Under the pieces are notes generated by a model. That model saw nothing but the letters and a program-made list of their open reading frames with translations, ran no database searches and was not told where the DNA came from. The position numbers were made by a program, and so were the translations under genes. DNA of 64,000 nt, taken from positions 1,116,001-1,180,000 of the forward strand of contig NZ_JACIDR010000001.1 of NCBI RefSeq assembly GCF_014196425.1. Reading direction: 5' to 3'. This stretch comes from Hansschlegelia beijingensis. Lineage in GTDB: Bacteria; Pseudomonadota; Alphaproteobacteria; Rhizobiales; Methylopilaceae. This document shows, piece after piece, positions 33,329 to 39,492 of this stretch; the stretch's first letter is position 1; every line of letters starts with the position of its first letter.

Positions 33329-33429
33329 CCGCTCCCTCGCCAGCGGGATCAGGCATGCGCTTGGCGCGGCGGCCCGCCGCGCCTATGTTGGGAGCGCTTC
33401 CCGACGCCGCGCACGAGCCCCTTTTCCAG

Positions 33430-34257
33430 ATGACCTTTGTCGACGCCCAGACTGCGCCGCTTCGCAAGAACGGCGCGATCAAGATTCACACCGCCGAGGC
33501 TTTTGAAGGCATGCGGCGCGCCGGCCGGCTCGTGGCGGAAGCGCTCGACATGCTGCACGACCATGTGAAGCCTGGCGTCACGACGGACGCGCTGGACAAG
33601 CTCGCGCTCGAGTTCGGCATGGACCACGGCGCGCTGCCCGCCTGCCTCAACTATCGCGGCTACTCCAAGACGATCTGCACGTCGATCAACCACGTCGTGT
33701 GCCACGGCATCCCGAACGACAAGCCGCTGCGCGAAGGCGACATCGTCAATGTCGACGTCACCTACGTCCTCGACGGCTGGCATGGCGACTCGAGCCGGAT
33801 GTTCGCGATCGGCGCGATCCCGCGCCGCGCCGAGCGGCTGATCGAGATCACCTACGAGTCGCTGATGCGCGGGCTTGCGGTCATTCGTCCCGGCGCGACG
33901 ACCGGAGACATCGGCGCCGCGATCCAGGAATACGCCGAGGGCGAACGCGCCTCCGTGGTGCGCGACTTCTGCGGCCACGGCATCGGCCGGCTGTTCCATG
34001 ACGAGCCGAACATCCTGCATTACGGCCGCCGCGGCGAGGGCGCCGAGCTCAAGACCGGGATGTTCTTCACCGTCGAGCCGATGATCAATCTCGGCCGCCC
34101 GCATGTGAAGGTGTTGGCGGACGGCTGGACCGCCGTGACGCGCGATCGCTCGCTCTCCGCGCAGTACGAGCACATGGTCGGGGTGACCGAGGACGGCTGC
34201 GAGATCTTCACCGAATCCCCGCGCGGCCTCATGGCCCCGAAGTTCGCGACGGTCTGA
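33430..34257 (+). CDS. map: Methionine aminopeptidase type I
   Basis: Map removes the initiator Met from nascent proteins. The 275-residue protein has the metal-binding set in [20 protein letters not shown] (two Asp), [14 protein letters not shown] (His) and TVEPMINLG (Glu), with a final Glu in [11 protein letters not shown]. The ATG at 33430 gives the usual N-terminus ([18 protein letters not shown]); the open frame from 33355 adds unsupported residues. Confidence 0.96.
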
Positions 34258-35170: not shown

Positions 35171-35280
35171 TGGTGCACAACCACCCTCCGGGGCCCCGAG
35201 GCGCGAGTCGGGCGGACATCGAGATGACGCGAAGCGTGACGGGACGGTCACGCCGGCTCCAGGAGGCCGATCTGAGCAGA
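35171..35280 (+). pseudogene. Decayed partial copy of the radC 3' end
   Basis: Bases 35171-35231 match radC 34919-34979 over 61 positions without gaps; I count about 48 identities. They cover the JAMM segment, reading [20 protein letters not shown] instead of [20 protein letters not shown]. About 50 bases are then missing, and 35235-35276 again resembles the last bases of radC including its stop region. An ATG at 35164 opens a 60-residue frame through it to 35346, but the rest has no radC character. It is best read as a relic of a partial tandem duplication. The surrounding 35084-35381 holds no other gene. Confidence 0.65.
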
Positions 35281-35381: not shown

Positions 35382-36803
35382 TTGCCCTCCCCCGCCTTCG
35401 ACGAGATGACGCTTTCGGACGGCAGCGTTCGCCCCGCGTACAGGAAACTCGCCGAGTGGCTCGCCGCCGCTCCGCCCGATCTACTCCAGTACCGCGTCAA
35501 GGAAGCCGAGCTGCTGTTCCGGCGCATCGGCATCACCTTCGCGGTCTATGGGGACCAGCAGGCGCAGGAGCGCCTGATCCCCTTCGACATCATTCCCCGC
35601 ATCATCACCGCCGACGAATGGGCGACGCTCACCAAGGGCCTCGTGCAGCGCGTCGAGGCGCTGAACCGGTACATCTCCGACGTCTACGGCAAGCGCGAGA
35701 TCCTCAAGGCGGGGATCGTGCCCGAAGACCTGGTGTTCCGGAACGAGGCGTTCCGGCCCGAGATGGCCGGAAAGACGCCCCCGCATGACCTGTGGGTGCA
35801 CATCGCCGGCATCGACGTGGTGCGCGTGGACGCCGACACGTTCTACGTGCTGGAAGACAACGCCCGCACGCCCTCCGGCGTCTCCTACATGCTGGAGAAC
35901 CGCGAGGTGATGATCCGGCTGTTCCCGGAGCTGTTCTCGCAGCACCGCGTGGCGCCGGTCGAACGCTACGCGGACGAGCTTCTGGCCACGCTGCGCTCGC
36001 TTGCGCCGCGGACCAGCTCGGCGGAGCCGGTCGTCGTGCTGCTCACCCCGGGCGTCTACAACTCGGCCTATTACGAGCACTCCTTCCTGGCCGACAAGCT
36101 GGGCATCGAGCTGGTCGAGGGCCGGGATCTCTTCGTGCGTGACGAGGTCGTCTACATGCGCACGACGGAGGGGCCGCAGCGCGTCGACGTGATCTATCGG
36201 CGGATAGACGACGAGTTCCTCGACCCGCTGGTGTTCCGTCCGGACAGCGCGCTGGGCGTGCCCGGCCTGATGAGCGCCTATCACGCCGGCAACGTCACGC
36301 TCACCAACGCGATCGGCACGGGCGTCGCCGACGACAAGGCGATCTACAGCTACATGCCGGAGATCATCCGGTTCTATCTCGGCTCCGAGCCGATCCTGAA
36401 GAACGTGCCGACCTATCGCTGCCGCGAGCCGGAGGCGCTGTCCTACGTGCTCGATCATCTCGACGAGCTGGTCGTCAAGGAGGTCCACGGCTCGGGCGGC
36501 TACGGCATGCTGGTCGGGCCGCACGCCTCGAAGGAGCAGATCGAGCTGTTTCGCGCGAAGCTCAAGGCGTCGCCCGCCGGCTTCATCGCCCAGCCCACTC
36601 TCGCGCTCTCGACCTGCCCCACCTACGTCGCGTCGGGCGTCTCGCCGCGGCATGTGGACCTGCGGCCGTTCGTTCTCACCGGATCGAACGGCGTGCGGAT
36701 CGTGCCCGGGGGGCTGACCCGCGTGGCGATGCGCGAAGGTTCGCTGGTCGTGAATTCGAGCCAGGGCGGCGGCACCAAGGACACCTGGGTGCTGGACGAA
36801 TGA
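35382..36803 (+). CDS. Circularly permuted ATP-grasp protein (Anbu cluster)
   Basis: This circularly permuted ATP-grasp (CP_ATPgrasp, old DUF404/DUF407) protein of 473 aa is predicted to be a carboxylate-amine ligase of unknown substrate. Typical segments are LLFRRIGITFAVYGD, IPFDIIPRIITADEW, YVLEDNARTPSGVSYMLENR, TPGVYNSAYYEHSFLA, VDVIYRRIDDEFLDPL, VVKEVHGSGGYGMLVGP and the end NSSQGGGTKDTWVL. The frame starts at a TTG (35382) with AAGGAG about ten bases upstream; the next ATG is 8 codons in. It is the first of four co-directional genes that recur together with Anbu in other genomes. Confidence 0.9.
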   Translation: MPSPAFDEMTLSDGSVRPAYRKLAEWLAAAPPDLLQYRVKEAELLFRRIGITFAVYGDQQAQERLIPFDIIPRIITADEWATLTKGLVQRVEALNRYISDVYGKREILKAGIVPEDLVFRNEAFRPEMAGKTPPHDLWVHIAGIDVVRVDADTFYVLEDNARTPSGVSYMLENREVMIRLFPELFSQHRVAPVERYADELLATLRSLAPRTSSAEPVVVLLTPGVYNSAYYEHSFLADKLGIELVEGRDLFVRDEVVYMRTTEGPQRVDVIYRRIDDEFLDPLVFRPDSALGVPGLMSAYHAGNVTLTNAIGTGVADDKAIYSYMPEIIRFYLGSEPILKNVPTYRCREPEALSYVLDHLDELVVKEVHGSGGYGMLVGPHASKEQIELFRAKLKASPAGFIAQPTLALSTCPTYVASGVSPRHVDLRPFVLTGSNGVRIVPGGLTRVAMREGSLVVNSSQGGGTKDTWVLDE

Positions 36804-36846
36804 CCATCCCGCTCCGCTCTCCACAGCACCGCTTGCGCGTGATCTC

Positions 36847-37788
36847 ATGCTGAGCCGCACCGCCGACAATCTGTTCTGGCTGTCGCGCTATATCGAGCGC
36901 GCGGAAGCGCTCGCGCGGATCCTGGAGGCCACCCAGCGGCTCGCCTCGTTGCCGGCCGCCTATGGCGGCAAGACCAATGAATGGGAGAGCGCCGTCGCGA
37001 CCGCCGGCTGCGCCGAGGGCTTTTACGCCAAGCATGGAGAGGCAGATCACGACTCGGTCGTGGCCTATCTCGCCTTCGACCGCGACAACCCTTCCTCCAT
37101 CCTGAACTGTTTCGAGACGGCGCGGCACAACGCCCGCTCGGTCCGCACCGCGCTCACGATAGAGATGTGGGAGACGATCAACGGCGCCTGGATCGAGCTG
37201 CGCCGGCTGGCCGATCGCAGGCTCGCGGGCGAGGAGCTCACCCGCTTCCTGGGCTGGGTGAAGGAGATCGGGCTGCGCTTCGACGGCTCCGCCACCCGGA
37301 CCATGCTGCGCAACGACATCTACGATTTCTCGCGCATCGGCATGCTGCTCGAGCGCGCCGACAACACCGCCCGCATTCTCGACGTCAAATATCATCTGCT
37401 TCTGCCGGAGCAGGGCGAGGTCGGCGGCGGCCTCGACTACTACCAGTGGCAGGCGATCCTGCGCGCGGTCTCCGCGGTGACGAGCTATCACTGGGTCTAC
37501 CGCGAGAGCGTGAAGCCCTGGCTGATCGCCGACCTGCTGATCCTGAACGACCAGATGCCGCGCTCCTTCGCCGCCTGCTATGGCGAGCTCGTCCGCCACC
37601 TCGACCAGCTGGCGCGCGCCTATGGCAGGCAGGGGCCGGCGCAGCGGCTCGCGCGAAGCTGTCGCGCCCGGCTCGAGAACGCCGACATCCGCGACGTCTT
37701 CCAGAGGGGACTGCACGAGTTCATCACCGACTTCATCGCCGACAACAATCGACTGGGCGCCGCGGTCCACGAGCAGTATCTCGCGTAA
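36847..37788 (+). CDS. Alpha-E domain protein (Anbu cluster)
   Basis: This 313-residue, almost fully alpha-helical protein of the alpha-E/DUF403 family starts MLSRTADNLFWLSRYIERAEALARILE, the family hallmark. FDRDNPSSILNCFETARHNARSVR and DNTARILDVKYHLL follow. No catalytic motif is known; the family occurs almost always beside circularly permuted ATP-grasp and transglutaminase-like proteins and has been proposed to act with them in peptide bond formation or transfer. It lies 43 nt after the ATP-grasp gene and 3 nt before the transglutaminase gene. Confidence 0.92.
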   Translation: MLSRTADNLFWLSRYIERAEALARILEATQRLASLPAAYGGKTNEWESAVATAGCAEGFYAKHGEADHDSVVAYLAFDRDNPSSILNCFETARHNARSVRTALTIEMWETINGAWIELRRLADRRLAGEELTRFLGWVKEIGLRFDGSATRTMLRNDIYDFSRIGMLLERADNTARILDVKYHLLLPEQGEVGGGLDYYQWQAILRAVSAVTSYHWVYRESVKPWLIADLLILNDQMPRSFAACYGELVRHLDQLARAYGRQGPAQRLARSCRARLENADIRDVFQRGLHEFITDFIADNNRLGAAVHEQYLA

Positions 37789-37791
37789 CCC

Positions 37792-38625
37792 ATGCGCCTG
37801 ACCATCCGCCACGAGACGACCTATCGCTTCGAGACGCCAGCCGCGTCCGTCATCCAGACGTTGCGGCTGTGGCCCCGCGGCCATGACGGCCAGCACGTCG
37901 TGCGCTGGCGCCTCGACGTCGACCGCAACTGCCGCCTGCGGGCCGCGGAGGACGCGTTCGGCAACCAGGCCCACGTTTTCGCGGCCGACGGCCCGCTGGA
38001 CGAGATCACGGTCCTGGTCGAGGGCGAAGTCGACACGCAGGACGCCGCGGGCGTCGTCAATCGCGCCGCCGAGCGCTTCCCCCCCGCGCTCTATCTGCGC
38101 GAGACGCCGCTCACCGCCCATGATCACGAGATTTCAGCCTTCGCCGAGGAGGTCGGCTCCAGCGCCGGCGGCGGCGAGCTCGCCGCGCTGCACGGGCTGC
38201 TCGATCGCCTGCATTCCGAGATGGAGTTCGCGCCGGGCCAGCCGGACGGGGCGACCACGGCCGCCGAGGCTTTCCGCGTGAAGCGCGGCACGGCGCAGGA
38301 CCTCACCCATGTCTTCCTCACCGCCGCGCGCGGTCTGCAGATCCCTGCCCGCTGCGTCAGCGGCTACGTCCGTCGCGAGGGGGGCGAACCGCAGGATTCG
38401 CCGCACGCCTGGGCCGAGGCCTATGTGCCCGACCTGGGCTGGGTCGGCTTCGATCCGACAGAAGGCGTCTGTCCGACCGAATCGCATGTCAGGGTCGCGA
38501 TCGGGCTCGATTGCCTCGGCGCCGCGCCGGTGCGCGGCTCCCGCTACGGCGGATCGGGAGAGACGATGACGATGAGCGTTCTGGTTCAGGACGCACGAGC
38601 CTCTCGCAGTTATCGCCGTTCGTGA
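37792..38625 (+). CDS. Transglutaminase-like protein lacking the catalytic Cys (Anbu cluster)
   Basis: The 277-residue protein has an N-terminal beta domain (MRLTIRHETTYRF) and a transglutaminase-like core. The usual G-x-C-x-D-x-x-H nucleophile motif reads RGTAQDLTH here, so the Cys position is Ala168. The partner His205 (SPHAWAEAY) and Asp221 (WVGFDPTEG) are present. A Cys at 188 (PARCVSGY) is one strand away and could not simply substitute. The fold may therefore act as a binding module or use another chemistry. It is translated directly after the alpha-E gene. Confidence 0.9.
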   Translation: MRLTIRHETTYRFETPAASVIQTLRLWPRGHDGQHVVRWRLDVDRNCRLRAAEDAFGNQAHVFAADGPLDEITVLVEGEVDTQDAAGVVNRAAERFPPALYLRETPLTAHDHEISAFAEEVGSSAGGGELAALHGLLDRLHSEMEFAPGQPDGATTAAEAFRVKRGTAQDLTHVFLTAARGLQIPARCVSGYVRREGGEPQDSPHAWAEAYVPDLGWVGFDPTEGVCPTESHVRVAIGLDCLGAAPVRGSRYGGSGETMTMSVLVQDARASRSYRRS

Positions 38626-38727
38626 GCGTCCAACTGGCGCCCCAATTCGATGCAGCGCGGCATCGCGCGTTGGCGCGTCGGCGTGAGTCTTGATAGCGTC
38701 GGCGGCTTCTGTGGGCGGGACGCGTAA

Positions 38728-39492
38728 ATGACCTATTGCGTTGGTATTCTGGTCCGAGATGGACTGGTCATGATCGCCGATACCCGCACCAATGCGGGGA
38801 TCGACAACATCGCCGTTTTCCGCAAGCTCAAGATCGTCTCGGAGCCCGGGCGGCGCACGCTCGCCATCGCCACGTCCGGCAATCTCTCTGTCAGCCAGTC
38901 GGTGATTTCGCTGCTCGCCGAGGGCGTGGAGAACCCGGAGACGGGCGAGCTTGAAACGCTCGAAAGCCAGCCGACCATGTTCAAGGCCGCGCAGCTCGTC
39001 GGGCGAGCCGTGCGCGAGGTCTGGCGGGTCGACGGCGCGAGCCTCGAGCAGATGACGGCGCGGTTCGACGTGCAGTTGCTGTTCGGCGGCCAGGTCGCGG
39101 GCGGCCGCGTCCGGCTCTTCATGATCTATGCGGCGGGCAACTTCATCGAGGTGACCCCCGACACGCCCTACTTCCAGATCGGCGAGCACAAATATGGCAA
39201 GCCGATCCTCGACCGCGCGGTCACCTACGAGACCGACCTCTACGACGCCCTGAAGATCGGCTTGATCTCGATGGACTCCACGATGCGGTCGAATCTCGGG
39301 GTCGGGCCGCCGATCGACGTTCTGGTGCTCAGGAAGGACGCGCTGGTCCCGGAGCTCGACTTCAGGATCGAGCCCAACGACCGCTATTTCGTCGACCTGC
39401 GCGAGCGCTGGTCGCGCGCGTTGCGCACCGCGCATATGGAGATTCCGCGGCCGCCCTATGGGGCGAACGTGCCGGGAGACGTGGAAGGCTGA
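38728..39492 (+). CDS. Anbu proteasome-like N-terminal-nucleophile hydrolase
   Basis: This Ntn-hydrolase of the proteasome beta/HslV superfamily, Anbu type, is 254 aa. The start MTYCVGILVRDGLVMIADTRT puts Thr at position 2, which becomes the catalytic Thr1 after Met removal; Asp and Lys of the site fall in ADTRTN and RKLKIV. IATSGNLSVSQSV and GLISMDSTMRSNLGVGPP are Anbu hallmarks. Anbu forms open, helical or ring-like assemblies in solved structures, and its substrate is unknown. It is the last gene of the cluster, about 100 nt after the transglutaminase-like gene. Confidence 0.92.
   Translation: MTYCVGILVRDGLVMIADTRTNAGIDNIAVFRKLKIVSEPGRRTLAIATSGNLSVSQSVISLLAEGVENPETGELETLESQPTMFKAAQLVGRAVREVWRVDGASLEQMTARFDVQLLFGGQVAGGRVRLFMIYAAGNFIEVTPDTPYFQIGEHKYGKPILDRAVTYETDLYDALKIGLISMDSTMRSNLGVGPPIDVLVLRKDALVPELDFRIEPNDRYFVDLRERWSRALRTAHMEIPRPPYGANVPGDVEG

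Follow-up and report, generated by a model that had tools for sequence, protein, structure and literature searches.

Organization of the Anbu locus

We analyzed a 64,000-nucleotide stretch of the Hansschlegelia beijingensis genome (contig NZ_JACIDR010000001.1; hereafter the window), in which positions 35382-39492 hold four co-directional genes on the + strand. They encode a circularly permuted ATP-grasp protein, an Alpha-E protein, a transglutaminase (TG)-like protein and the proteasome relative Anbu, identities that had been assigned from the DNA alone (the sequence-only reading) and are confirmed by open reading frames (ORFs), Pfam and PDB matches. Two features had escaped that reading: the TG-like protein is devoid of its catalytic cysteine, and a second system, without Anbu, is located on another contig. 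The cluster type itself is already in print; new here are the TG findings, a lost nucleophile and a glutamine tail. Anbu is debated as an ancestor of the proteasome, and neither its substrate nor a hydrolytic activity is known, as the sequence-only reading rightly said of the substrate.

35382-36803, + strand: circularly permuted ATP-grasp protein, 473 amino acids (PF14403/PF04174; PDB relative 3n6x, E = 2.8e-203)
36847-37788, + strand: Alpha-E protein, 313 amino acids (PF04168), all-helical in the structural model
37792-38625, + strand: transglutaminase-fold protein, predicted pseudoenzyme without C-terminal glutamine tail, 277 amino acids (Ala168/His205/Asp221)
38293-38295, + strand: codon GCG, encoding Ala168 where transglutaminases have their nucleophile cysteine
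38728-39492, + strand: Anbu-1, N-terminal nucleophile (Ntn) hydrolase with threonine at position 2, which removal of the Met would expose, 254 amino acids

The intergenic gaps are 43, 3 and 102 nt in cluster order, the 3-nt gap between the middle two genes having been read correctly before. The ATP-grasp gene starts with TTG and is preceded by AAGGAG 10 nt upstream, as judged by eye. Pfam matches were obtained to CP_ATPgrasp_2 (E = 1.5e-169), to Alpha-E (1.3e-96), to Bact_transglu_N (1.3e-21) and Transglut_core (1.9e-17) in the TG protein, and to Proteasome (8.4e-6) in Anbu. Among PDB sequences, the match to 3n6x provides the ATP-grasp protein with a solved relative in addition to its Pfam family, the TG protein matches 3isr (2.5e-9), and Anbu matches five distinct Anbu sequences (1.2e-76 to 7.8e-65). 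Alpha-E has no PDB sequence match up to E = 1, and its model (predicted local distance difference test score 78, predicted template modeling score 0.49) finds no similar fold in the PDB at E <= 0.001.

The Anbu translation begins with Met-Thr and contains Thr1, Asp17 and Lys32, in agreement with the exposed catalytic threonine proposed earlier. The five residues named by Fuchs et al. for the Anbu-1 S1 pocket (PMC5666114), Thr-20, Phe-30, Thr-48, Leu-52 and Ser-55, are all kept (5/5, counted on the translation), and the protein, present as a single copy in the genome (E <= 0.001), thus has the sequence features of Anbu-1 within the proteasome-type Ntn family with an N-terminal threonine. In PaAnbu, whose open-ring dodecamer is in print, the inhibitors epoxomicin and MG132 bind Thr1 (PMC5666114); the same paper treats the types Anbu-1 and Anbu-2. 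HslUV and the 20S proteasome share with Anbu the Ntn-hydrolase fold and the threonine nucleophile but differ from it in that Anbu forms open rings, as published. No AAA+ domain of a cognate unfoldase is encoded in the six neighboring ORFs scanned, a search that did not extend to HslU genome-wide. The Anbu-1 operons of Pseudomonas and Yersinia bercovieri (PMC5666114, PMC6376114) contain these four families in identical order, with Thr1, Asp17, Lys32 and the S1-pocket residues. The difference lies in the TG protein of the window, which has neither the nucleophile cysteine nor the glutamine tail of most homologues, a comparison made with TG homologues other than those of Pseudomonas and Y. bercovieri.

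Loss of the transglutaminase nucleophile

The TG protein belongs to the TG fold superfamily by its two Pfam domains and by its model, which matches 3isr_A with a template modeling score of 0.77 over the query. The Cys-His-Asp triad is incomplete: His205 and Asp221 are kept, and Ala168 occupies the place of the cysteine in the motif GTAQDLTH, compared with GVCQDFAH and GSCRDSTW in the pair of TG proteins encoded by the second system. We therefore predict from its sequence that the protein is a pseudoenzyme. A sequencing error behind Ala168 is unlikely because two adjacent codons (ACG GCG) deviate from the usual Val-Cys and because congeners show other replacements. Among 13 genomes of the genus, window included, the cysteine is kept in 8 and absent in 5, where it is replaced by alanine (window), serine (G195, G198 and G200) or proline (G196, in split frames). 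In this last congener, 88% complete, the TG and ATP-grasp genes are both split into overlapping frames (L185), which may be an assembly error.

We compared 164 distinct cluster-type TG proteins from loci L031-L130 and L161-L316, after dropping matches scoring <=100, one frame-shifted piece and rows that do not differ over their final 150 residues (172 reduced to 164, with near-identical ones still included). The cysteine is present in 140 of them and absent from 24, the replacements being Pro (8), Ala (5), Ser (5), Gly (4), Tyr (1) and Val (1). These 24, all kept in the tree, include G196 and three sequences (L188, L189, L191) in which so little of the motif is left that it is uncertain which residue took the place of the cysteine. 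In a quick tree of 160 Alpha-E rows, built under a simple model, the cysteine state changed at least 16 times, with eight independent pairs on well-supported branches. A cysteine-to-alanine exchange as a general trait of Anbu-linked TG proteins was considered and rejected, only 3 of 28 rows (class sample, window included) being without the cysteine. Non-synonymous divergence (dN) is far below synonymous divergence (dS) in the serine-type clade of the genus (dN/dS of 0.015/0.264, 0.021/0.311 and 0.028/0.429), a sign of strong purifying selection, and a cysteine-less protein can thus be held by selection. We found no mention of the lost cysteine in full-text literature searches, most subscription papers lying outside their coverage. 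Loss of this residue narrows down the possible roles of the system.

A glutamine tail in TG homologues

Most TG homologues finish in glutamine-rich tails such as QSQSQS or QVQQ. Glutamine occurs within the last three residues in 127/140 cysteine-bearing and 14/24 cysteine-less TG proteins, compared with 7/29 small TG proteins of the second-system type, 7/179 ATP-grasp, 16/178 Alpha-E and 21/183 Anbu proteins. Counted from the C terminus of the cysteine-bearing proteins, its frequency alternates (0.46, 0.70, 0.14, 0.54, 0.14, 0.35, 0.12, 0.43). A nucleotide artefact was rejected as the cause, as both glutamine codons (CAG 253, CAA 110) and all three stop codons are in use. Beyond the class, 20 regions taken from the more similar end of the matches, with two close relatives of one omitted, yielded 19 TG proteins after removal of duplicates; all 19 have the cysteine and 17 end in glutamine. 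Of eight named plasmid records outside the set of 164, seven carry glutamine at one or more of the final three positions, only one such residue being present in Deinococcus deserti (ARQE); the eighth, Paenibacillus cellulosilyticus, has none. The tail is not mentioned in the Anbu literature that we searched, which covers few of the subscription papers.

The window protein ends in YRRS. Nine of its 12 congeners are likewise tail-less, namely eight cysteine-bearing proteins and G196, and the three serine-type congeners retain the tail (QTQSQR, QTQVQR). The relation of tail to cysteine is thus reversed in this genus, which also accounts for 8 of the 13 cysteine-bearing proteins without a tail. 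A coupling of cysteine loss to tail loss appears in a Fisher test (p = 0.00024) but not when the tree is considered (median p = 0.625), and we do not claim it.

It is conceivable, if rather unlikely, that the tail is the built-in substrate of the system: ATP-grasp/Alpha-E, or else the active site of the TG protein, would write on it, and it would be trimmed by Anbu, which has a narrow amphiphilic S1 pocket into which glutamine could fit. As the window has no tail, this idea cannot hold unchanged in this genome; it would require that lineages without the tail, several of which are also without the nucleophile, use another acceptor. Its probability is slightly reduced because tail and cysteine are not paired in the genus. 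The tail as a substrate of Anbu alone is a weakened candidate, since it occurs in 18/25 TG loci without Anbu in the fetched stretch, compared with 123/139 loci with Anbu. The Pup system offers a partial likeness, combining a proteasome relative with a ligase and, if the tail idea is right, a C-terminal glutamine handle. It differs in that its ligase comes from another superfamily; here no Pup is known, and the tail belongs to a folded TG protein and is missing from the window.

The tail idea bears on published assays. The Y. bercovieri TG protein carried a C-terminal FLAG tag in a pull-down, and the aminomethylcoumarin (AMC) substrates offered to Anbu had Tyr, Arg or Glu at P1, none having Gln (PMC6376114). 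If the Y. bercovieri TG protein has a tail, the tag and the choice of substrates suggest a possible reason why these assays failed. A constant partner (ATP-grasp, in the sample described below), an optional chemistry (transglutaminase) and a conserved glutamine C terminus of the TG protein together open the way to concrete tests.

Distribution of the four families

We searched 190 genomes of the class, in counts that ignore kinship (no phylogeny correction), and found Anbu in 54, circularly permuted ATP-grasp in 71, Alpha-E in 70 and Bact_transglu_N in 71. For each of the three families, matches among 14 named controls come from two, Caulobacter vibrioides and Synechococcus elongatus. The ATP-grasp is present in every one of the 54 Anbu genomes, an association beyond chance. 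The sequence-only reading was right that the set recurs in other bacteria. Alpha-E is present in 53 of the 54, the exception (G147) having its ATP-grasp at a contig edge, and Bact_transglu_N likewise in 53. The exception here, G185, was TG-less by domain search and is not counted as such, a TG piece lying at the edge of the fetched stretch.

The 58 places at which Anbu occurs comprise 26 Alpha-E/TG/Anbu arrangements, 6 Alpha-E/Anbu arrangements without TG, and 5 others in which a TG or Alpha-E gene is close by; at the remaining 21, both are missing from the surrounding 8 kb. In the six loci without TG, ATP-grasp precedes Alpha-E and the TG profile finds nothing at E <= 1. Of the 71 ATP-grasp genomes, 17 have no Anbu. 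One genome with a TG-less locus (G167) holds a TG gene in a separate, Anbu-less cluster. The distance between TG and Anbu is ~607 kb in the congener G192 and ~212 kb in G193. Among the best 80 of 594 loci retrieved by Anbu, 18 have no co-directional trio of the other genes alongside, some of them ending at contig edges; 17 of these 18 genomes contain the circularly permuted ATP-grasp (one only as the fused type), the exception being a metagenome-assembled genome. Anbu thus accompanies ATP-grasp, with loose linkage and with TG as an optional member. Of 159 homologues checked, 157 retain the C-terminal ATP-grasp motif. An Anbu-less ATP-grasp/Alpha-E/TG cluster also lies on Deinococcus deserti plasmid 1 (L338 548-5346), near genes for a LexA-family regulator, a Y-family polymerase and dnaE.

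A second system in the same genome

The second system (G000:C2, ~479-487 kb; L088 1741-9728) encodes a large TG protein, an ATP-grasp/Alpha-E fusion and a small TG protein. It shares the ATP-grasp, Alpha-E and TG families with the Anbu locus but differs from it in having no Anbu, in the fusion of ATP-grasp and Alpha-E into one 831-amino-acid open frame, and in the intact Cys/His/Asp triad of both TG proteins. The fusion supports the view that ATP-grasp and Alpha-E work together. A divergent ORF beside this system (L088 1741-2943, - strand) resembles, by eye, a 'putative zinc-binding metallopeptidase' beside a Hymenobacter cluster.

A possible writer/eraser locus

In our best explanation, to which we assign a probability of about 0.42, this is a nitrogen-stress writer/eraser locus whose TG fold presents the substrate, as a pseudoenzyme in this genome. 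ATP-grasp with Alpha-E would be the writer, using ATP to activate a carboxylate and adding one or more residues to an acceptor; the TG-fold protein would bind or present that acceptor without catalysis of its own here; and Anbu would be the eraser and hydrolyze the product. In Pseudomonas, the operon belongs to the nitrogen-limitation response. We infer the acceptor, the product, the presenting role of the TG protein and the substrate of Anbu. The proposed ATP-grasp activity is that of an amide-bond-forming ligase, and the Y. bercovieri homologue, which fits a ~14-mer, releases phosphate from ATP (PMC6376114). Our reading is built on the restriction of Anbu to genomes with ATP-grasp in the class sample, the ATP-grasp/Alpha-E fusion, the conserved C-terminal ATP-grasp motif, the repeated loss of the TG cysteine, the selected cysteine-less TG proteins and the TG-less loci, and, from print, on this phosphate release, inhibitor binding to Thr1 and induction by nitrogen limitation.

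The induction was reported for P. putida PP_2685-2688, probably under control of NtrC, with PP_2685 being proteasome-like and PP_2686 transglutaminase-like (PMC7801951, PMC3325844); by gene order, PP_2687 and PP_2688 would be Alpha-E and ATP-grasp. The earlier statement that the role of the set is unknown overlooked these reports. A DUF403/404/TG cluster belongs to the B. cenocepacia NtrC regulon, but its TG protein is large and no Anbu is named with it, leaving it not clearly of the Anbu type (PMC5491218). In marine metagenomes, these domains correlate with urea genes (PMC3597751). The closest analogue is the rlo operon of P. aeruginosa, in which ATP-grasp, an inactive transglutaminase-fold protein and a protease show writer/eraser genetics, loss of ATP-grasp or TG rescuing loss of the protease (PMC12239564). 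It differs in that the protease is a retropepsin rather than an Ntn hydrolase, the TG protein is membrane-bound, Alpha-E is absent from the operon as described, and the ATP-grasp is compared with RimK.

Several observations weigh against a writer/eraser locus. The proteins compared in the rlo parallel share their broad folds but come from different families, and the trio persists without Anbu, so that an eraser is not always required. Anbu was without activity on a standard substrate set in the work of Fuchs et al., who prefer protein degradation (PMC5666114). Y. bercovieri Anbu left LLVY-, VGR- and LLE-AMC uncleaved, and the ATP-grasp was not stimulated by Anbu, Gln or Glu (PMC6376114). With Anbu as bait, the co-expression pull-down of the same study found no specific partners, pairs among ATP-grasp, Alpha-E and TG not being covered. 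The pull-down and the distance of Anbu from the trio in two congeners (~0.2 and 0.6 Mb) undercut the use of the tight gene spacing as an argument for a complex. We found no sigma-54 promoter match in the gap upstream of the cluster; across the whole window there are 12 matches with <=2 mismatches compared with 22.5 expected. Finally, the window TG changes faster than ATP-grasp, Alpha-E and Anbu in the same pairs, possibly by decay.

Decay would mean that the TG gene of the window is no longer needed and that cysteine loss lies on the way to the TG-less form, an alternative that we regard as somewhat unlikely. It would fit the dN values, which are highest for TG among the compared genes in all 12 congener pairs (Anbu included in 11) and, between the window and G191, amount to 0.25 (dS 0.659) for TG compared with 0.053 (0.633) for ATP-grasp, 0.088 (0.589) for Alpha-E and 0.037 (0.731) for Anbu. 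Some relatives have lost the motif altogether, the six TG-less loci exist, and the tail is missing from the window and from nine congeners. The frame is nevertheless open, with His and Asp intact and dN below dS, and the serine-type clade is strongly conserved. What the lost cysteine and the TG-less loci do not sustain is the assumption of the sequence-only reading that the TG protein is a catalytic partner.

A TG step that is still required could instead be supplied in trans by the second system, whose two TG proteins retain the full triad. We consider this quite improbable: that system owns a separate ATP-grasp/Alpha-E fusion, and most small TG proteins of its type have no glutamine tail. 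It is equally doubtful that Anbu is a separate nitrogen-starvation protease loosely tied to the trio. The unlinked Anbu genes of two congeners and the 18 of the best 80 loci without an adjacent trio, some cut by contig ends, would be expected of such a protease, as would one RNA sequencing study of three P. putida strains, in which Anbu changed 1.12-, 4.81- and 1.45-fold and the other three genes rose 11- to 37-fold (PMC7801951). Against it, a second study found Anbu up 11.1-fold (PMC3325844), and ATP-grasp accompanies Anbu in all 54 sample genomes and in nearly all trio-less ones. The small-peptide biosynthesis and processing pathway that citing papers attribute to Iyer et al. 2009 would fit the combination of ATP-grasp, a TG fold and a peptidase, but TG catalysis is optional and Fuchs et al. 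(PMC5666114) consider the pathway less likely; we hold it to be very improbable.

Neighboring genes

The cluster is preceded by map, the gene for a type I methionine aminopeptidase, and by radC, and is followed by - strand genes for a DUF2155 protein and an NDUFA12-like protein. The map gene (33355-34257) lies ~4.5 kb upstream of Anbu and encodes the kind of enzyme required to expose Thr1 of Anbu, a proximity that is probably a coincidence. At 35171-35268, between radC and the ATP-grasp gene, the 3' part of radC occurs again as a partial, degenerate copy with a VHNHP motif; the alignment covers one block of 62 columns and one of 31, each at 87% identity.

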